A stretch of 26,958 bases of DNA from a virus, in the IMG/VR virus record IMGVR_UViG_3300046791_000163, positions 1 to 26,958 of that record. One strand, written 5' to 3'. Below, piece after piece: positions 4,370 to 26,958 of this stretch. The translations under genes were made by a program, and so were the position numbers. Within the stretch, counting starts at the first letter, position 1, and each line of letters begins with the position of its first letter. The notes under the pieces were generated by a model. The model did not search any database. It saw only the letters and a list, made by a program, of their open reading frames with translations, and was not told the DNA's origin.

Positions 4370-4731
4370 GTCCACGCCCGACCGATCCCGCGCCGATGCC
4401 GTCGCACGCGCCGGTGGTGGAGACAACGCTGCTCTCGCCGGCCGAAGAGGCGCAGTTTCAGCAGTGGGCGCGGGCGAACCAGATCGCTGACGCCAACGAC
4501 CCGCGCAGCTACTACGACTATCGCGGCTACTGGAAGGCGATTGCGTCCCAGGGCGGCAACCAGACCGAAATCAACGCCGGGGATGGGCGGCTGCACTTCA
4601 CCGACACCTACAAGCAGCATGGACATCCGACGTTTTCGGTCGAATCCCAGTATTCGCGCGGATTACAGGACGGCGGGCAGTGGCTACCCGGTGATGTGCT
4701 CATTGGTCCGCCAAAGCGGACAGGAAAGTAG
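4366..4731 (+). CDS. Conserved phage hypothetical protein, 121 aa
   Basis: The ATG at 4366 overlaps the portal stop (ATGA), which fixes the start even though the frame stays open far upstream. The sequence has an acidic/aromatic middle (LSPAEEAQFQQWA, then DPRSYYDYRGYWKA) and a characteristic C-terminal segment with DTYKQHGHPTFSVESQYS (about 83-100) and LPGDVLIGPP. Proteins with this YYDYRG...DTYK.HGHPTFS layout recur next to portals in podoviruses and related phages, with no assigned biochemical role. A head or packaging-associated virion role is an inference from position. No catalytic motif is visible. Confidence 0.8.
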   Translation: MSPRPTDPAPMPSHAPVVETTLLSPAEEAQFQQWARANQIADANDPRSYYDYRGYWKAIASQGGNQTEINAGDGRLHFTDTYKQHGHPTFSVESQYSRGLQDGGQWLPGDVLIGPPKRTGK

Positions 4732-4737
4732 GCAACC

Positions 4738-4914
4738 GTGGACCTCATCCAACTCGTGTTGTTGATCTGCGTGATCGGGGCGATTGTGTGGGCGTTGACG
4801 ACGCTCATCCCGATGCCGCCGCAGTGGGCGCGGGCGGTCCAAGTGCTCGCGTTCGTGGTCGTGCTGCTCTACATCCTGACGCGGGTATTCAACCTACCGA
4901 ACGTGCTGCGGTGA
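4738..4914 (+). CDS. Small two-segment membrane protein, 58 aa
   Basis: Begins at GTG 4738, six bases after the previous stop, with a purine-rich AGGAAAGTAGG upstream. The translation has two hydrophobic segments (about 3-24 LIQLVLLICVIGAIVWALTT and about 36-50 VQVLAFVVVLLYILT) separated by a proline-containing turn (IPMPPQW) and ends NLPNVLR. The size and two-span topology fit a class II holin-like protein, or the small two-TM proteins often found between portal and coat genes in phages. No endolysin lies beside it, so calling it the holin would be speculation. It was too short for usual ORF cut-offs. Confidence 0.6.
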   Translation: MDLIQLVLLICVIGAIVWALTTLIPMPPQWARAVQVLAFVVVLLYILTRVFNLPNVLR

Positions 4915-4915
4915 G

Positions 4916-4996
4916 GTGACGCTCTGGGCCTTCGTCTTCGTCATTTCCTTCGCGATTGGCTGGGTCGCGGCGGACTGGATTTTTCGGCGGCAGTAG
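4916..4996 (+). CDS. Possible 26-aa membrane peptide
   Basis: An open frame from GTG 4916 (one base after the preceding stop) to TAG 4996 encodes MTLWAFVFVISFAIGWVAAD followed by WIFRRQ. It is a single hydrophobic span with a basic C-terminus. Tight spacing after another small membrane gene supports it; very short length and lack of a separate ribosome site count against it. Function unknown. Confidence 0.3.
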   Translation: MTLWAFVFVISFAIGWVAADWIFRRQ

Positions 4997-5010
4997 GGCT
5001 TGGTAGGGCT

Positions 5011-5244
5011 TTGTCGGGTTTTATTAGGAGTTTGTCGAGTTTTCGGCGAAAAGTGTCGAGTTTTCGGCGAAAAGTGTCGTTGCAGAACGTGACACTTCGT
5101 AACACTTTTTGTTGCGCTTTTTGTTGCGCTTTTCGTTCGCTTGGAATCGCACTAATCGCACTGCGAATCGCACTCGCTTTTTTCGTTTCTTTCGTCTATT
5201 TCGTCGCGACAGCGACGTTGGAGCGCGTACGTGGCACTTGCTGA
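5011..5244 (+). CDS. Doubtful 77-aa repeat-encoded membrane ORF
   Basis: An open frame starting at TTG 5011 runs through all the tandem repeats and overlaps the scaffold start. The translation has a basic repeat (SSFRRKV twice), CCAF twice, then a hydrophobic stretch of about 24 residues (about 48-71, LGIALIALRIALAFFVSFVY and on). It could be a small basic-plus-TM protein. However, it has only TTG/GTG starts with poor ribosome-site spacing (AGGAG at 5026-5030 is one base from TTG 5032), and repeats whose periods are multiples of three keep several frames open by themselves. Recorded as a possibility only. Confidence 0.15.
   Translation: MSGFIRSLSSFRRKVSSFRRKVSLQNVTLRNTFCCAFCCAFRSLGIALIALRIALAFFVSFVYFVATATLERVRGTC
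5034..5075. promoter_or_regulatory. Two operator-like dyads on a 21-bp repeat
   Basis: Each 21-bp unit contains the palindrome TTTTCG-G-CGAAAA. The two dyad centres are exactly 21 bp apart, about two helical turns, so both would face the same side of the DNA. This is a classic spacing for cooperative protein binding. No protein partner is identifiable from the window. Confidence 0.4.
5072..5097 (+). promoter_or_regulatory. Imperfect hairpin after the 21-bp repeats
   Basis: AAGTGTC-GTT / GCAG loop / AAC-(gt)-GACACTT forms a 10-bp stem with a two-base bulge. A T-run (5106-5110) follows eight bases later, so it might be a weak terminator ahead of the scaffold gene, or a processing or binding site. 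The gap to the T-run is longer than usual for an intrinsic terminator. Confidence 0.35.
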
Positions 5245-6328
5245 CCGTCCCACCACCACCACCGATGCCGGCGGCTGGACCGAATCCCCCGACCAGCCCT
5301 CCGTCGAACCGCAGGGCCAGAACACCGAACTGCCGGCCGCGCAGGGCACCAACGGCCTCGACGCCGCCGGGCAGGCCATCGAGCCGGAAGAGGCGCACGA
5401 AGGCAACGAGCCGCCGCGCCGGCCGGACGGCCGGTTTGAGAAGAACGGGTTCCGGCGCCGGGCCGCGAGCCAGCAGGCGACCGCCGAGGATGTCCCGCGC
5501 ATTCAGGAATTGACCCGCCGGCTCCGGCAGACCGAACGCGAGCGCGACGAAGCCCGCGCCGGTGGCGTGGTCCCGGCCGCGAACGGCTCGACGCCCGCAC
5601 CCGCGCCGAAGCCTGCACCGGGCCAGCCCGCGCCCTCGCCCAACCCGCCGCCCACCGCGCCGTCGCGACAGGCGATCCCGCCGCCGCCGCCGCCGTTTAC
5701 GCTGCGAGAACCGGAGTGGAATGACTTTGCGAACTCCCCTGACCAGGCCCGCGACTACACCAAAGCCGTCGCCCGCTATGCACAGGCCGAAGAACGGCAC
5801 GAACGGGCCGTGCACTGGCACGAACAGGCGTCCGCCGGTGCCGCGCAACGTGAGGACGGCGAACTCAAGGCGCTGACGCAGGCGCACTGGGGACGCATGG
5901 CTGTGATCGGGCAAGATCCGAAGCACCAGGCGCTCGTCGCGCAGTTCCAACACGACGACCGTCCGATCACGCCCGCCGTCCTGCAAGCCGTCGTCCGCAT
6001 GGGCGAGAAGAGCGCGGAGACGACGATTGCGATCCTCTCGACGCCGGGATTGCTTGAAGAACTGACGCTCGCGACTTACGATAGGCCCGCAACACCCGAC
6101 CTCGTTGCACTCGTGCAACGCCGCTTGCAGTCTTTGGGGCTTTCGGCCGCTACCACCGGATCGGTCACTGCCCCGGCACCAACAAGACCAGCGCCCCGTC
6201 CGCCGAATCCGGTGCGGACCGCGCCTGAAGCACCACTGCGGGATCTCCCCGGAGACGATGCCTCAATGGCCGAGCACGCGGCGGCATTTCATCAGCCGCG
6301 CCGTTCACGCTTGCGACGGGATCGCTGA
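5231..6328 (+). CDS. Probable scaffolding protein, 365 aa
   Basis: Called from position and composition: it lies directly between the portal region and the P22-type coat gene, the scaffold slot in P22-like phages. It has the usual scaffold character: an acidic/proline-rich disordered N-terminus (1-70), a charged helical segment rich in Glu/Arg (about 84-108, VPRIQELTRRLRQTERERDE), a Pro/Ala linker (about 115-155), then a helical region (about 160-310), and a Pro/Arg-rich, basic C-terminus (RRSRLRRDR) of the kind that contacts coat subunits. The start is GTG 5231 with GGAG seven bases upstream. No protease motif is seen. The length is close to P22 gp8 (about 300 aa). Sequence identity to known scaffolds cannot be judged, so the name is an inference. 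Confidence 0.7.
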   Translation: MALADRPTTTTDAGGWTESPDQPSVEPQGQNTELPAAQGTNGLDAAGQAIEPEEAHEGNEPPRRPDGRFEKNGFRRRAASQQATAEDVPRIQELTRRLRQTERERDEARAGGVVPAANGSTPAPAPKPAPGQPAPSPNPPPTAPSRQAIPPPPPPFTLREPEWNDFANSPDQARDYTKAVARYAQAEERHERAVHWHEQASAGAAQREDGELKALTQAHWGRMAVIGQDPKHQALVAQFQHDDRPITPAVLQAVVRMGEKSAETTIAILSTPGLLEELTLATYDRPATPDLVALVQRRLQSLGLSAATTGSVTAPAPTRPAPRPPNPVRTAPEAPLRDLPGDDASMAEHAAAFHQPRRSRLRRDR

Positions 6329-6365
6329 CCGAGGGCCACCCGCCCAGTGGGGCGTGTGAGTGGCT

Positions 6366-7592
6366 ATGGCGAACTACATCATCACCCCGACGTGGGTGAC
6401 GAAAGACACCGCGCTCTTTTGGGACAACAGTCTCAAGCTCGTAGGCAACTTCGACCGGCAGTGGAACAAGGAGTGGAACTCCAAGCCCAAGGGGTCACAG
6501 ATCGGTGACACCGTGCAGGTGCGGACGCCGCAGCGGTGGACCGTCACCGAGGGGCAGGCGCTCATCCAGCAGTCCATCCTCAACCAGACCGTCCCGCTGA
6601 CGCTGAACCATCAGTACAACGTCGGCATGGGCTGGAGCAGCATCGAGGACACCCTCCAGATCGAAGAAGTGCAGGACCGCTACACGATGCCCGCCGGGGT
6701 CGCGTTGGCGAACAAGACCGACGCCGTCGCGGGCGCTGAGGTCTACCAGTCGATTTACAACGTCGTCGGCGCCCCTGGTGTCCCGCTCGTCAACAAGGAC
6801 TGGACGGACGCGGTGGCGCTGCTCCAGATGACGGGCACGCCGGAAGGCTACGTCGCGGTCATCGACCCGCTCGCGCAGAGCAAGTTGCTGAACGACAACT
6901 TCGCGCTGTTCGGCAAGCAGTACCAGGAATACTTCCGCACCGGCCAGTTCTCCGCGATGGCCTTGGGCGTGGACGAGTGGTACTACGACGCCGTGCTGCC
7001 GATTCACAATTCCGGCAGCTTCGCCGCCTCGACGCCCATCGTCGCCGGCGCGAATCAGACCGGCTCCGTGCTCAACATCTCCGGCATGGGCGCGTACTCG
7101 CTGAAAAAGGGCGATGCGTTCTACATCATCGGCGCGTCGGCGCAGGGCGTGAACCCGCTCTCGTACACCTCGACCGGCTTGCCGCAGCGGTTCGTGCTGA
7201 CGGCGGACATCGCGGGCACGGGCACGGCGGCGTTGCCGATCAGCCCGGCGATCATCCCCTCGGGACAGTTGCAGACGGTAACGGGCTCGCCCGCCAACGG
7301 CGCGGCGATCCAGTTCCTCGGGGCGACGGTGGCACCGGGGTCGGTGCTGACGGCGACGGCCTCGCGGCAGCAGTTCCTGTTCAACCCGGCGGCATTCGCG
7401 TTCGTGTCCGCTCCGTTGACCTCGGACCTGCCCGGTGCGCGGTCGAAGGTCGTCACCAACAAGGACATCAAGGCGTCCCTGCGGTGGGCCGAGCAGTGGA
7501 ACATCCAGACCGATCAGAAGCCGTCCAGGGTGGACATCTTGATCGGCGTGGCGGCTATCGAACCCTACTTTGCCGTTCGGTTGCTGACGTAG
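6366..7592 (+). CDS. Major capsid protein, P22 coat (gp5)-like, 408 aa
   Basis: Builds the icosahedral head. The N-terminus MANYIITPTWVTKDTALFWD and the following motif about a tubular N-arm, GDTVQVRTPQRW (about 47-58), match the P22 coat family layout (MAN..L.TP..I...A...., then GDTV.IR.P). LNHQYNVGMGWSSIEDTLQIEE and VALANKTDAVAGAEVY continue the HK97-fold core. The length (408 aa) is near that of P22 gp5 (430). ATG 6366 is preferred over GTG 6360 because family members begin MAN. The stop at 7592 is followed within 20 bases by a strong terminator, as expected for a highly expressed gene. Confidence 0.9.
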   Translation: MANYIITPTWVTKDTALFWDNSLKLVGNFDRQWNKEWNSKPKGSQIGDTVQVRTPQRWTVTEGQALIQQSILNQTVPLTLNHQYNVGMGWSSIEDTLQIEEVQDRYTMPAGVALANKTDAVAGAEVYQSIYNVVGAPGVPLVNKDWTDAVALLQMTGTPEGYVAVIDPLAQSKLLNDNFALFGKQYQEYFRTGQFSAMALGVDEWYYDAVLPIHNSGSFAASTPIVAGANQTGSVLNISGMGAYSLKKGDAFYIIGASAQGVNPLSYTSTGLPQRFVLTADIAGTGTAALPISPAIIPSGQLQTVTGSPANGAAIQFLGATVAPGSVLTATASRQQFLFNPAAFAFVSAPLTSDLPGARSKVVTNKDIKASLRWAEQWNIQTDQKPSRVDILIGVAAIEPYFAVRLLT

Positions 7593-18067: not shown

Positions 18068-20941
18068 TTGTCTCTATACAGCCTCAGTCCCCAACCCTGG
18101 CTCATCTTCCTCGATGACGACGGGCACATCATCCCGAACGGGCAGCTTGCCATCTACGCGGCGGGCACGACGACCCGCGAGCCGGTCTACGCCGACGCGA
18201 ACGGCACCGCACATCCCTGGCCCATCACCCTCGATGGCGACGGGCGGGTGCCGGGTGGCCTGTACCTCAGTCCGGGGCTCTCGTACAAGTTCGTCCTGCA
18301 CGAGCCGCAGATTGAGGCACCGCTTGACGGCGCGATTATCAAGACGCAGGACCACGTCATCGCGGGCGGCGGCACGCTCACCATCACCGGCAGCGTGCCG
18401 AGTGCGCCGAACCTGCCGCCGACCGGCGACCCCGGCGATGCCTATATCACGACCGACAACGGGCACCTCTGGATTTGGGACGAGGCCCAAGGCATCTGGG
18501 TAGACGCCGGGCCGGTGCAAGGGCCGATGGGTGCGACCGGGCCGGAAGGTCCGCAGGGCGCGCAAGGTCCGCTGGGACCGCCGGGACCGGAAGGACCAGG
18601 AGGCCCGCAAGGCCCGCCGGGCATTCAGGGGCCCGAGGGCCCCGAAGGGCCGCAGGGCGACACCGGACCGCAAGGGCCGATCGGGCCGGTCAATAGCGGC
18701 CCGGTGCCCTATCTCGACCTGACCGAAAACCCGACCGTGCTCGACCCAGCGGTGGACATCGCCCGGCTGTTCGCACTCGACCAGAACGGCTACAGCGTGG
18801 TCGAGGTCCGCGACTCCAACGCGAACGTCGTGCGGCTCGCCTCCGACAACGTCGTCATCTCCAAAGTGGTCGAACCGGCGGGCGTGGCGCGCGGGCAGGT
18901 CGTCTACATCTCGGGCGCGGCCGGGGCGAATCCGCTCGTCCGGCTCGCCAAGTCCGACAACATCAACACGATGCCGGGGATCGGCGTGGCGCTCGATCCG
19001 GGGGCGAACAACGCGTTCATTCGCGTGCTGACGGTCGGCACGATTCAACTCATCAACACGGCTGGGTTCGCGGAAGGCGCTTCGCTGTTTGTGTCGCCCA
19101 CGATTGCGGGCGACTTCACGACGACGTTCCCGGTCGCCCCGGCGTTCGCGCAGCGGATCGGGTTCGTCACGCGCAGCCACGCCACGCAGGGCGAGATTCT
19201 CGTGATGACGACGGGCGTCGATGGCCCGCCGCGCCTGCACGCGCCGACGCACGCCGCAGGCGGGACGGATGCGCTCAGCGTCGTCTCGCTGGCGGGCTAT
19301 CCGGGCGGCGCGACGACGTTCCTCCGCGCCGATGCGACGTTCGCGATCCCGGCGGGCGGCGGGGGTGGGTCGCTGCCGACCGATGCACTGGGGAAGGTGC
19401 TGATTTCGCAAGGCGCGGGCGTCGATCCGGTGTTCAGCCATACGCCGCTGCTGGAGGGGGCGCAGCCAAGTCTCACGCTTCGTGACGCAGGCGGTCCGCC
19501 CAACAACCGTGGGTGGATCGTCAGGACCGAGATCGGAGACGGGGTTGACCGCCTCGTGTTCCGTGCCGTCAACGATGCCGGTGTACCGTATGCGTCCTAT
19601 TTTTTACTCACTCCGTTCGGCGGCGGGTTTCAGTCCAGCGGGAACGGGTCGATTGAGGGGAAGCTGGGCTCTAGTCAGCAAATCCTCACTAATAGATATT
19701 TTGAGGCGCTAGAGCAGCCGCTCGCCGGACTGCCGCCCCCGGACTACGGGGTCGGTGCCCTCGCCAACATCAGCGACAGCAACACCGCCGTGCTGGGCGC
19801 AGTGATCGCGGGCGGCGGCACCAACCATGTGCTCGCGCGCTACGACGGCGCGGCGTGGCGCGTGGTCGCGGGCGTCGGCGTGACGAGTGGGGCACCCGCG
19901 CTGCACGCGCCAACGCACAACACGGGCGGGAGCGATCCGATCACCGCACTGGCGGGCGGCGTCATCACGACCGGCACGGTCCCCGACGCGCGGCTGTCGA
20001 GCAACGTCGCGCTCAAGAACATCGATAACGTCTTCGTCGCGCAGACGCTGGCCGATGGCACGGTCATTCGGGGGCCGAATAGCTGGCTGAATTTTTTGTC
20101 AACCGGCTCGGGCCTGAACCTGAAACTGTGGAGGATGATCAACTACACCGACGGAAATTTCAGCCTTGAAGCGATGACGGACGATGCCCAAGGCTATGTC
20201 GCCCGATTCTTTTTCTACCGGGACAACTCCTTCTTGGCCGCCGGTGGGTTGGGCGCCACGCCGCTCAACGCCTCGCAACTGACGAGCGGCCTCGTGCCGG
20301 ATGCGCGGCTGTCTACAAACATTCCCCGGCTCGACGCGCAGAACTATTTCACCGGCGCCGCGCAAGTGCTGAGCGCCGCCAACCCGAGTATCTATTTCTA
20401 CGACGCCACGCAGGGGCCGAATCAGAAATGGTACCGGATGTGGGAGGCCGGGGGCATTTTCCAAATCAACGCGACCGACGATGTTGGGTCGCCCGGCACG
20501 CCGTGGAACCTGAATCGCGAAGGCGTCGTATCGGCGTCCGGCCAGCCCCGCACGTATGCCGTCAGGACCACGCCCGTTTCGATTGCCGTGGGGACGCCGT
20601 ACATCTTTGTCTTTGAGTCGGCGGGCTACAACGTCGGGAACTGCTGGAGCGCGGGCACGGCGCATGTGTTTTTCGCAAACGTCGCGGGCCTCTACACCAT
20701 GACGGCCGAGGTGAATTTTGCCAACAACGATACTGGACGCCGGTTAGCTCGCTTTATGCACACCAGCGGGATCTATTTCGGCACGCAGCAGATACAGGCC
20801 GTTGTCGGCGCGGGCACCGCCATGACCATCTCCGCGCAATACCAGATGGCGGCGGGCGAGTGGATTCTCTTGGAAGTCACGCAGTTTGGCAGCGCGGCGA
20901 TCACCGTCAACGGCTCCATGCGCTGGGTGAAGGTCGCCTAA
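18068..20941 (+). CDS. Tail fibre 1 with collagen-like stalk and C1q-like tip, 957 aa
   Basis: Receptor-binding fibre. Only TTG 18068 can start the gene: the frame has a stop at 18038 and no other start codon between. The choice is confirmed by the second fibre, which aligns from the first residues ([10 protein letters not shown]). Domains: 1-100, anchor shared with fibre 2 ([32 protein letters not shown]); about 120-147, [16 protein letters not shown]; 152-208, 19 consecutive collagen Gly-X-Y triplets; about 215-385, a fibre domain ([26 protein letters not shown]); [11 protein letters not shown] at 391 and [11 protein letters not shown] at 613 as stalk modules; 'PDARLS' modules; and a C-terminal C1q/TNF-like jelly roll (about 835-957, [12 protein letters not shown] ... 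SMRWVKVA). The stop overlaps the next ATG by one base. Confidence 0.88.
18521..18691 (+). other. Collagen-like Gly-X-Y stalk in tail fibre 1
   Basis: Encodes 19 uninterrupted Gly-X-Y triplets (residues 152-208), beginning [12 protein letters not shown] and ending GPQGPIGPV. Collagen-like triple helices are a known trimerising stalk in phage fibres. The second fibre lacks this element. Confidence 0.9.
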
Positions 20942-22619: not shown

Positions 22620-23039
22620 TCACGCCTTCTCGGGTAATGGCCCGACGAGAATCGGCGGCGGCGTCGGGAACTCGCGGTCCCGGTGCCGCCACAAGTGCAG
22701 GACGGCGGCGTGCGCGTTCACGTATTCGCTCTTGCGTGGATGGAACTGCACGACTACGTCCTCATCGTCCCAGCAGAGATGCTTCACGTAGGCCATCTCG
22801 GTCCACGTTGGAATCCGCACCTTCTTCCGCTCGCGTTCGCGGGCGCTGACGCTGACATGCTCCCAGCCACGCATCTCCGGCGCGACCTCGGGATCGGGAT
22901 TGGTGCCGTCGTCACAGATCAGGAGCAGCCACCGTTCACCCTCCACGGGCGGCAAGAGAAACGCGCCGAAGTTCCCGACCCCAGGCAGTGAGCGCAGGGG
23001 GCCGGTGGTCAGTCGATAGGGTTCAGGGACGCGAAACAT
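22620..23039 (-). CDS. DUF7694-like phage protein, 139 aa
   Basis: Start ATG 23039 (MFRVPEPYRL), two bases after the upstream gene's stop. Recognisable segments: GVGNFGAFLLPP (about 21-32), LLLICDDGTN, then WEHVSVS (about 59-65), RIPTWTEMAYVKHLCWDDEDVVVQFHP (about 75-101) and SEYVNAHAAVLHLWR (about 104-118). The WEHVSVS / PTWxEMxxxKxLxW / VVQFHP / YVNxHxxxLHLWR series is, from memory, the DUF7694 family that is frequent in phages of diverse bacteria; its function is unknown. Location in the non-structural operon suggests an early or middle function rather than a virion part. Confidence 0.75.
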   Translation of the reverse strand: MFRVPEPYRLTTGPLRSLPGVGNFGAFLLPPVEGERWLLLICDDGTNPDPEVAPEMRGWEHVSVSARERERKKVRIPTWTEMAYVKHLCWDDEDVVVQFHPRKSEYVNAHAAVLHLWRHRDREFPTPPPILVGPLPEKA

Positions 23040-23041
23040 GG

Positions 23042-23476
23042 CTAGAAGGGTGCCTTTTCTCTTTTTCGCCGTCCAGCGTCCGCGACGGCATGACACGGCT
23101 TACAGAGCCACACGATCAACATCGGCAAGTCGTAGTCTGGGTGATGACGCTCAAGGCGCTTCGCTAGTCCGCACATCTGGCAACAAGCAGGAGCCTTTCG
23201 GTGGCGCCGCTGCGCCATGAGATACACCCTGTTTCGGCCGGGGTGTTTCCGGCGGTATTCCCTAGCCCTCCTGATGTTGCCTGCCCGCCTGTGCGGTAGC
23301 TTGGATCTGGCGCGGTCGTAAGCGCGGACCTCGTCTATCCTCGCGAGCCGATTCGCGGTGACATCGGCTCGCGTGCAGTCTTTACACTTTCCCAGGTGCC
23401 CGTCCCCCATCATCGGGTGTCGATAGAACTCAGTCAGTCGCTTTTTTCGGCCGCACTTGAAGCACGCCTTCTTCAT
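23042..23476 (-). CDS. Second HNH-type endonuclease, 144 aa
   Basis: From ATG 23476 (MKKACFKCG): an N-terminal zinc element (C5-x2-C8, then CKDC at about 31-34), a basic helical linker (RAREYRRKHPGRNR), and a C-terminal HNH-like zinc site: CQMCG, RHHPDYDLP, WLCKPCH. The CxxC...HHxDY...CxxCH pattern is common in phage HNH proteins that nick or cut DNA. The frame is open upstream to 23548, but that part overlaps the preceding gene, and family members start at the Cys element. The gene sits in the minus-strand operon between two conserved phage genes. Its ATG and the preceding stop codon both lie within a perfect inverted repeat. Confidence 0.78.
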   Translation of the reverse strand: MKKACFKCGRKKRLTEFYRHPMMGDGHLGKCKDCTRADVTANRLARIDEVRAYDRARSKLPHRRAGNIRRAREYRRKHPGRNRVYLMAQRRHRKAPACCQMCGLAKRLERHHPDYDLPMLIVWLCKPCHAVADAGRRKREKAPF

Positions 23477-23498
23477 CCGTTCTAGCTTAGAACGGATA
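23474..23498 (-). promoter_or_regulatory. Start-codon-sequestering hairpin of the second HNH gene
   Basis: Perfect 10-bp inverted repeat, ATCCGTTCTA and TAGAACGGAT (23497-23488 and 23484-23475 on the mRNA strand), with a three-base AGC loop. An eleventh U-G pair brings in the G of the start codon, so the whole AUG is paired. The stop codon of the upstream gene lies in the same stem. In DNA it is also a good operator-type dyad. Confidence 0.6.
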
Positions 23499-24054
23499 CG
23501 GCCGAATGTAACGCGCCGAGTGCCGGGACAATGAACCCGATCACCCAACTAAACGGGATGTCATTGTCGTCACCGAAGGGTTCCGGCACATGGCGCGTCG
23601 GCACATGGCCGTCGCGAATACGGACAGCCCATCCCCGTGCGCGGCTCGCGTCCAAGCGGTTATACCGCGCCTTCTTGACGGACTCGGCATCGCCCGCCGC
23701 CTCGTTCTGGTTCGCGAAGTAGTCCAGCCGTGACGCGACAAGGTCGAGATACTCAGCCGGGCACTCGCTGAAGCGCCGCCCTTGCATCGACGGGCCGGTC
23801 CAGTCGCGCGGGGACTTGGCCCGCACCTCGGGGTCGCCATGATCCGAGTCGAGGTCTTTATCGCTCGCCTCGCGCGGCGGGTCAGGGCGTGGCCCGCGAG
23901 GCACAGCGGATGGACCATTCCCGGCCCGCGCAAACGGCGGTCGCGCCGCCGGTGTCGAAGGGCCGTGCCCGGCACGCGCGGCCATCGCGATGAGCGTGTC
24001 GAGCTTCGTGCTGATGTCGCGCAGGACGGCGAGGGCGTCGTCTCCAGATGCCAT
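23482..24054 (-). CDS. Conserved phage hypothetical protein, 190 aa
   Basis: ATG 24054 with an excellent AAAAGGAG site. N-terminal helix (LAVLRDISTKLDTLIAMAAR, 9-28), a Pro/Arg/Gly-rich disordered part (about 30-70), then a conserved segment: GDPEVRAKSPRDW, GRRFSECPAEYLDLVASRLDYFANQ (about 92-116), and YNRLDASRARGWAVR (about 131-145). The 'GDPEVR..P..W.G....G...SE.P.EYLD.....L......D..RAR.WA' layout recurs in phages of many bacteria as a hypothetical protein close to recombination or replication genes; no activity is established. The C-terminal hydrophobic stretch (IPFSWVIGFIVPALGAL) is unusual and may be a membrane segment. Confidence 0.7.
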   Translation of the reverse strand: MASGDDALAVLRDISTKLDTLIAMAARAGHGPSTPAARPPFARAGNGPSAVPRGPRPDPPREASDKDLDSDHGDPEVRAKSPRDWTGPSMQGRRFSECPAEYLDLVASRLDYFANQNEAAGDAESVKKARYNRLDASRARGWAVRIRDGHVPTRHVPEPFGDDNDIPFSWVIGFIVPALGALHSAVSVLS

Positions 24055-25637: not shown

Positions 25638-26958
25638 TCATTCAATCTCTCCTGGCTCGTACAGTCCATGCACGACATCTGGGAAAACCAATCTTGCCAA
25701 CTTCACCGATGCCCTTGCGACCATCATGTCCATTGGCGACGACTTCCACCCGCTGCCGTCCTTTACCAAGCCTGCGGCGCGGGCCTCGTCCATCGAAAAA
25801 CTGAGGCTGATCTCAGGATCGTCGCCACGCTTTGTAGCGAACGTTGCACGCTCTGGCGTGCGCTCTGTGCAGCGGAAATATTTCGCCAATCCAGAACGCA
25901 ACACGAGCGCCCGAATCGCATCGGCCGCGAGCACGGGCTTCCCAGAAATTACGTGAAAGGCACGAAGTGAGTGCATCGCGGACATCCCCAACTCGCGGCC
26001 CGCCATGATCGTCATGAGCACACCCTGTGCTGTGCCGTACGCGCCGTAGAGCCGCGACTCAAACGCATACTTCGCCAACGTCGTCGCCTCACTCATCGAC
26101 ACTGGCTCCAACTGCCGGGTGTACTCCGCGTCGATCACTTGCGGCACTGGCGCCTTGGACAGCGAGCGGAACGCCTCGGCCAACTGAGCAGCCCCACGCG
26201 CAGGCTCCGGCGCAGGCGCGGCAGGTATTGGCTCCACAGGATCGGGCGCTGGCTTGTGCTCCACGACGGGCCTGACGGGTGCGGTGGGATCGGGCGGCTT
26301 GACTGCGTCCACCACAGCCGGTGGCGCGTCGATCACTCGCCGCGCCTTGCGTGGCTTGGCTGGCGCGGCCGGGGGCAGTTCCACCCGTGGCGTGCCCAGC
26401 GTCGGCTCATGCACGGCCGGGGGCGGCTCCACGACAGGCGCGGGCGACGGCAGACCGGTCGGCGTGTCGGCAGCAAACGGACTCTCTTCTTCGTCCAGAT
26501 CGAACATCGGCACCTGTCGCTCCACGGCAATCTCCTGAAACGGGATCGGAAGGTCCGCGCGCAGGCGGACCAGATTCTTCACGTCATCGACGCGCGAGAG
26601 AAACGTCCCGAGCGATGCCTGAATGCCCGGCGTGAACTGATCGGGCTTGGCGCTCCACGCCGCGTAGATGCCGTCGAGCGACCCGTAGGCACTCAGCAGC
26701 TTTTCCGCCGTCACCGGGCCAATCTTGTCCGCGCCCTTGATGTTGTCGGACGCATCGCCCACCAGGCACAAGTAGTCGTGAATCTGCTCCGGCGTGACCT
26801 TGAACTTGGCCTTGACCACCGCCGCGTCGATCACGCTGCCGTCCTTCAGCGACTTCAGCGTGACGCGGTCATTCACGAGCGCCAGCAGATCCTTGTCGGC
26901 ACTCACGATCTGCACGGTCGCACCGGGCACCTGGAGCGCCCGTGCGGCGGCAGAGGCA
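25638..26958 (-). CDS. 5'-3' exonuclease (FEN/PolA type) fused to RecT-like annealing domain (partial, 5' end outside window)
   Basis: One uninterrupted frame open to the window end; at least 439 residues. Numbering from GTG 26930: the N-terminal part is the second half of a structure-specific 5' nuclease, with VSADKDLLALV (9-19, metal-binding D12 and D14), DYLCLVGDASDNIKG (52-66, D59 and D62) and the helix-3-turn-helix DNA-binding loop KIGPVTAEKLL (69-79). It is joined by a Pro/Ala-rich linker (about 150-250) to a C-terminal domain (about 278-430) with MAGRELGMSAMHSLRAFHVI, GKPVLAADAIRALVLRSG, MDEARAAGL, MMVARASVKLARLVFPDVVHGLYEPGEIE. The last part resembles phage RecT-like single-strand-annealing proteins. 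A combined function would be resection plus annealing of DNA ends, as split-gene pairs do in lambda or Rac. The nuclease call is firm; the RecT call is moderately so. It heads the minus-strand operon. Confidence 0.8.
   Translation of the reverse strand, partial: ASAAARALQVPGATVQIVSADKDLLALVNDRVTLKSLKDGSVIDAAVVKAKFKVTPEQIHDYLCLVGDASDNIKGADKIGPVTAEKLLSAYGSLDGIYAAWSAKPDQFTPGIQASLGTFLSRVDDVKNLVRLRADLPIPFQEIAVERQVPMFDLDEEESPFAADTPTGLPSPAPVVEPPPAVHEPTLGTPRVELPPAAPAKPRKARRVIDAPPAVVDAVKPPDPTAPVRPVVEHKPAPDPVEPIPAAPAPEPARGAAQLAEAFRSLSKAPVPQVIDAEYTRQLEPVSMSEATTLAKYAFESRLYGAYGTAQGVLMTIMAGRELGMSAMHSLRAFHVISGKPVLAADAIRALVLRSGLAKYFRCTERTPERATFATKRGDDPEISLSFSMDEARAAGLVKDGSGWKSSPMDMMVARASVKLARLVFPDVVHGLYEPGEIE

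Follow-up and report, generated by a model that had tools for sequence, protein, structure and literature searches.

The closest described counterparts of the gene analysed here are lambda Red (Exo plus Red-beta) and Rac RecET, in which a 5'-3' nuclease is paired with a RecT/Red-beta annealase. In these systems the two proteins come from two genes and form a non-covalent complex through the C-terminal domain of the annealase, and the exonuclease is of the PD-(D/E)XK YqaJ/RecE type. The exonuclease of phage lambda digests the 5' strand and is believed to place the annealase on the 3' strand exposed in this way; Red-beta has binding partners in SSB as well as the exonuclease, and by analogy the extra C-terminal residues of LiRecT are thought to bind partners (PMC9772228). 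The nuclease half of our gene has its counterparts in T5 D15, ExoIX and the 5'-3' exonuclease domain of PolA, which occur either on their own or attached to a DNA polymerase. Among named phages, the annealase half is closest, at ~30-37% identity, to the standalone RecTs (phrog_561/phrog_4171) of Gordonia, Microbacterium, Thermobifida and Salinibacter phages, which are 250-350 aa long, have their own gene and a sequence running beyond the core, adjoin RecE/YqaJ in 3 of 6 cases examined, and are placed outside the clade of fused proteins.

The window, an IMG/VR virus record of 26,958 bases, carries on its minus strand a gene (25638..26957) in which a 5'-3' nuclease is likewise paired with an annealase whose core is of the RecT/Red-beta fold family. 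Unlike lambda Red and RecET, however, the family to which this gene belongs has both domains on one polypeptide, a FEN-type nuclease and no C-terminal domain past the annealase core. Compared with T5 D15, ExoIX and PolA, which are its top structural matches, the family's nuclease is likewise a full domain with all of the active-site acids, but it is joined to an annealase instead of a polymerase. No description of a nuclease-annealase fusion was found in 50,697 named phage genomes, nor was a natural exonuclease-annealase fusion found in those portions of the open-licence literature that were searched, including annealing-protein surveys checked for fusion terms, and an earlier note on this DNA knew of no characterised protein of this architecture. 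Both halves are known families; the open-licence papers searched gave no account of their joining, of a FEN nuclease serving as the exonuclease, of the missing tail or of how broad the family is. The carriers are a widespread group of uncultivated phages, in which a single molecule probably suffices, thanks to the fusion, for joining DNA ends.

One open frame and its two halves

The frame running from 26957 to 25638 on the minus strand is open for 439 codons with no internal stops. Its 5' end is cut by the contig edge, so that the first ~100 nuclease residues are missing from the window copy, and the GTG from which a 430 aa protein could be read is simply the earliest in-frame start codon of the window ORF, an effect of the contig end. 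Residues 1-147 (26517..26957, minus strand) are the C-terminal ~147 aa of a FEN/PolA-type 5'-3' nuclease domain that spans ~255 aa when complete in the fused family, and residues ~272-439 (25641..26144, minus strand; 168 aa) are a RecT/Red-beta annealase core that forms the C-terminus of the protein. We searched the window for RecT sequence in another frame beyond the stop and found none. The earlier note had proposed that the two halves lie in one unbroken frame, and this holds both for the window and for at least 61 other contigs in which the join recurs; the fusion of nuclease and annealase in one ORF is real.

Between the halves lies a linker (26145..26516, minus strand), which is Pro/Ala-rich as described earlier but measures ~125 aa, not the 100 residues then given. 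It is of low complexity and has no family match. Across the family the linker varies from 35 to 170 aa, next to a RecT core of ~165 aa, and in a full-length model of the homologue L031 it is predicted to be disordered (pLDDT ~30). An in-frame ATG with a Shine-Dalgarno-like sequence lies just past the nuclease in L018, L029, L033, L022, L014, L031 and others.

The window nuclease matches PF01367 (E 1.2e-19) and the C-terminal part of PF02739 in Pfam, phrog_107 exonuclease (E 2.5e-14), and Taq, E. coli Xni and PolA by phmmer, and contains the DKD motif, VGDASDN and a helix-hairpin-helix. Of 24 aligned members, 21 have both Pfam domains (best E 1.7e-32 for PF02739 and 1.3e-23 for PF01367), and the remaining three are cut by contig ends. 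Among the fused sequences covering the respective columns, no variation is seen in the catalytic carboxylates (D, D, E, D, D, D, D, D) or in the YKxxR motif. The nuclease of the L031 model is confident, with most blocks above pLDDT 90, and its Foldseek matches are ExoIX, T5 FEN, mycobacterial FEN and a plastid (plant) exonuclease of the FEN family. These Pfam and Foldseek matches bear out the earlier assignment of the nuclease to the FEN/PolA/T5 class rather than to that of lambda Exo/RecE. NCBIfam has names for the separate halves only. To judge from its sequence, the active site is complete across the family, and a metal-dependent 5' exonuclease or flap activity is predicted.

For the C-terminal half, the window sequence matches two RecT-like families, phrog_561 (E 3e-17) and phrog_4171 (E 2e-12); the Pfam RecT model (PF03837) is weak for the window, at E 0.24, and reaches 5e-5 in relatives. 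Over the 24 members, phrog_561 matches all (best 9e-27) and PF03837 matches 15 (best 5.5e-5), and profile A5 matched a Red-beta chain at 4.3e-6. Modelled alone, the window RecT domain has a pLDDT of 86; in the L031 model the core is mostly at 80-92, with weaker helices at its start. The top Foldseek match of the window model is Red-beta 7ujl (E 2.2e-4, prob 1.00). In VIA the same model gives Z 7.8 over 139 residues with 7ujl and Z 6.8 with LiRecT 7ub2, values which, being below 8, are moderate and are taken jointly with the sequence evidence, the two matches spanning nearly the whole domain. RAD52, Mgm101 and Sak rank below Red-beta and LiRecT in this structure comparison. We conclude that the C-terminal domain, which the earlier note had called RecT-like, is a predicted RecT/Red-beta annealase with a RAD52-like core fold, for which annealing and oligomerisation are expected; the family matches and predicted fold are not those of a non-annealing family.

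Tail, genome context and proposed function

Fused RecT proteins end 0-14 aa past the core. Complete standalone RecTs from the IMG/VR scan extend 160-308 aa past it, with the exception of L043 (16 aa), a comparison from which L110 was left out as a frameshifted fusion, and the standalone RecTs of named phages likewise extend past the core. The fused RecT is without the usual tail, unlike most of the standalone RecTs sampled, and in Red-beta that tail binds the exonuclease and SSB. With no such tail here and a covalent link to the nuclease, loading in cis by the tether would be the most economical reading.

We consider it likely that the protein is a one-polypeptide form of the phage two-component single-strand-annealing recombinase, in which the nuclease resects the 5' strand or removes flaps and RecT anneals. 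The N-terminal FEN-type nuclease would act on a phage DNA end by resecting its 5' strand, or would cut off 5' flaps; the covalently attached RecT core would load onto the emerging 3' single strand; and the core would then anneal this strand to its complement, so as to join, repair or concatemerise phage genomes. Here we infer catalytic activity, the direction of digestion on ends, annealing and in-cis loading, and resection would, as the earlier note suggested, be tethered to annealing. Against this scheme, it is for removing flaps from replication intermediates, and not for long processive end resection, that such FEN enzymes are best known, and RecT acts as a large oligomer, for which a nuclease on each subunit may be awkward.

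The genomes that carry the fusion provide a further view of its partners. In 29 records of 38-62 kb, which may be incomplete, the fusion is the sole match to the FEN model and the sole match to the RecT model. YqaJ and RecE/DUF3799 exonucleases were found in 0 of these 29 long records (the window record itself is a fragment), PDDEXK_1 gave no match over the cut-off and one below it, and SSB was found in one. Separate genes and a YqaJ or RecE/DUF3799 exonuclease are the defining features of Red/RecET; since the halves share one frame in at least 61 contigs and no such exonuclease appears in the 29 records, we do not class the fusion as a member of that group. Among six named phages with a standalone RecT, DUF3799 or YqaJ is present in three and a FEN of the fused type in none. 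However, that no further exonuclease was found carries less weight than it might seem to, because YqaJ and DUF3799 are absent too from the five standalone-RecT IMG/VR records tested for both families.

The main rival to end resection holds that the nuclease is mainly replicative, removing lagging-strand primers and flaps beside the host polymerase while RecT anneals at forks, with the fusion coupling flap processing to annealing. We regard this as possible, though it is the less favoured account. The nuclease does belong to the PolA/ExoIX/T5 FEN class, and in some phages the gene lies near replication genes, encoding either an AAA_25 protein that weakly matches Toprim and zinc-finger families or VapE-like proteins; RecT/Red-beta annealing is, moreover, thought to occur at replication forks (PMC9772228). 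Yet DNA polymerases of families A, B and C (A, B and III-alpha) were found in 0 of the 29 long records, so that the nuclease serves no recognised phage polymerase, and hosts normally provide their own Pol I for primer removal. The missing phage polymerase makes it less likely that the nuclease has a dedicated partner in a phage replisome, but does not speak against work with a host polymerase.

If end resection by the fusion is correct, a FEN-class nuclease can replace lambda Exo/RecE. With a natural fusion, the way resection is coupled to annealing can be tested in a single protein, and the fusions are candidates for single-gene recombineering in bacteria where Red and RecET perform poorly.

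Downstream of the fusion, the window contains a conserved companion gene of no known family (23482..24054, minus strand), a homologue of which lies within 4 kb downstream of the fusion in 39 of the 61 contigs. The companion protein has no Pfam match at a meaningful E-value and no PHROG or NCBIfam match; its consensus reads DLDxxxGDP...PRDWTGxSxKGxxxSECP...RARGWAARxRAG. The last residues of several homologues are DDDIPF-like, which we take to resemble the C-terminal tip of SSB, and the window copy has DDNDIPF near its C-terminus and extends 22 residues beyond it. Elsewhere in the window are genes for a P22-like coat protein and terminase, a small DUF7694 protein (22620-23096, minus strand; PF24746, E 1e-21) and a tail-fibre-like protein of 957 aa with a collagen-like Gly-x-y stretch (18068-20941, plus strand). 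An integrase lies near the fusion in L031.

A possible second product from the linker

Another way to view the gene, compatible with the end-resection scheme, is as a source of two proteins, with a free linker-RecT annealase translated from a start inside the linker alongside the full fusion. The latter would nucleate on the DNA end and free RecT would lengthen the oligomer. An ATG with a Shine-Dalgarno-like 5-mer occurs within the first 40 codons past the nuclease in 16 of 44 non-redundant fusions (for example gaggatgagattATG), the limits (first 40 codons, ATG only) having been picked after the broader count was known; three other 40-codon stretches give 0/13, 0/33 and 0/29 among genes with an ATG there. 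Synonymous codon shuffles, which preserve the protein, gave a mean of 10.9 and reached 16 in 1 of 500, and the broader count stands at 25/46 against a shuffle mean of 17.9 and a maximum of 24. Because the shuffle mean is itself high, however, most of the signal is due to acidic residues ahead of the Met, to which codon choice adds a modest excess. In addition, a Shine-Dalgarno sequence is present at the main start in only 25 of 61 cases, and the window linker is without such an ATG.

In more than a third of the family a Shine-Dalgarno-like site and ATG in the linker suggest a candidate second, free RecT product, and we hold the two-protein account itself only tentatively. The same caution extends to the wider proposal of a new class of recombination enzyme, perhaps, in which FEN resection and RecT annealing are combined in one polypeptide at fixed stoichiometry and many members also make free RecT via an internal ribosome-binding site. 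If this were true, one gene would provide both an end-resecting loader and an annealing filament.

Recurrence, selection and descent

We scanned IMG/VR with the RecT half, the fusion alignment and the nuclease half, followed by HMM searches of every ORF, and found both domains in one uninterrupted frame in at least 61 further distinct contigs from 52 datasets. A scan of viral contigs with a single protein at full length gave no match, its exact patterns probably falling in variable parts. With tblastn, no named phage record had both domains in one place (queries: the window protein, four other RecT fusions and a Sak4 fusion), and the two were not found together in plasmid records with the window protein as query. 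Among genome contigs, the scan returned a fused MAG contig and a single standalone RecT. A complete fusion and the companion gene are present on the 3.8-kb contig L126 (JAGOBQ010000487.1), which is binned to a Thermoanaerobaculia (Acidobacteriota) MAG, a weak hint of Acidobacteriota hosts and not proof.

In close pairs, the nuclease has a dN/dS of 0.09-0.37 and RecT one of 0.02-0.19, with looser values for the linker, which points to purifying selection on both domains and less on the linker. These values bear on a further explanation, in which the nuclease domain would serve as a structural module that binds ends or caps filaments, its cutting being incidental or kept switched off. FEN domains do bind ends and branched structures, and RecT oligomers with many active nucleases could harm the phage; but with the catalytic carboxylates and YKxxR invariant throughout the fused family and dN/dS low, we think this improbable.

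That the join is an assembly or frameshift artefact has practically nothing left to recommend it: the window is a metagenomic fragment whose ORF touches its end, and the close pair L110/L111 differs as split versus fused, but the same join in at least 61 divergent contigs from 52 datasets, with nuclease identity down to ~31%, refutes it. The homologues in other phages, where the earlier note had advised looking for the same fusion, are fused and not split over two genes.

The 62 fused RecT cores all group in a single clade (98/90), separate from the 13 standalone RecT rows. Four seemingly unfused rows lie within the fused clade, three of them truncated by contig ends and the fourth the frameshifted L110. 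Since the fused cores form one clade and its unfused members are explained in this way, the RecT phylogeny fits a single fusion event. L110 and L111 are ~99.5% identical over 4688-6602, and the fusion (positions 4761-6606) is in two overlapping frames in L110 and in one in L111. In the nuclease tree most fusions group together, with long-branch exceptions (L111) and a few other neighbours including L084.

This last contig (IMGVR_UViG_3300021178_000012) carries at 4932-7133 a nuclease of the same clade joined to a Sak4-like, RecA-family annealase (phrog_124, E 2e-19). A scan for further Sak4 fusions with the ATPase half of L084 returned only L084 itself. Taken with the RecT fusions, the nuclease clade is therefore joined to two unrelated annealase families, the Sak4 case being a single contig.
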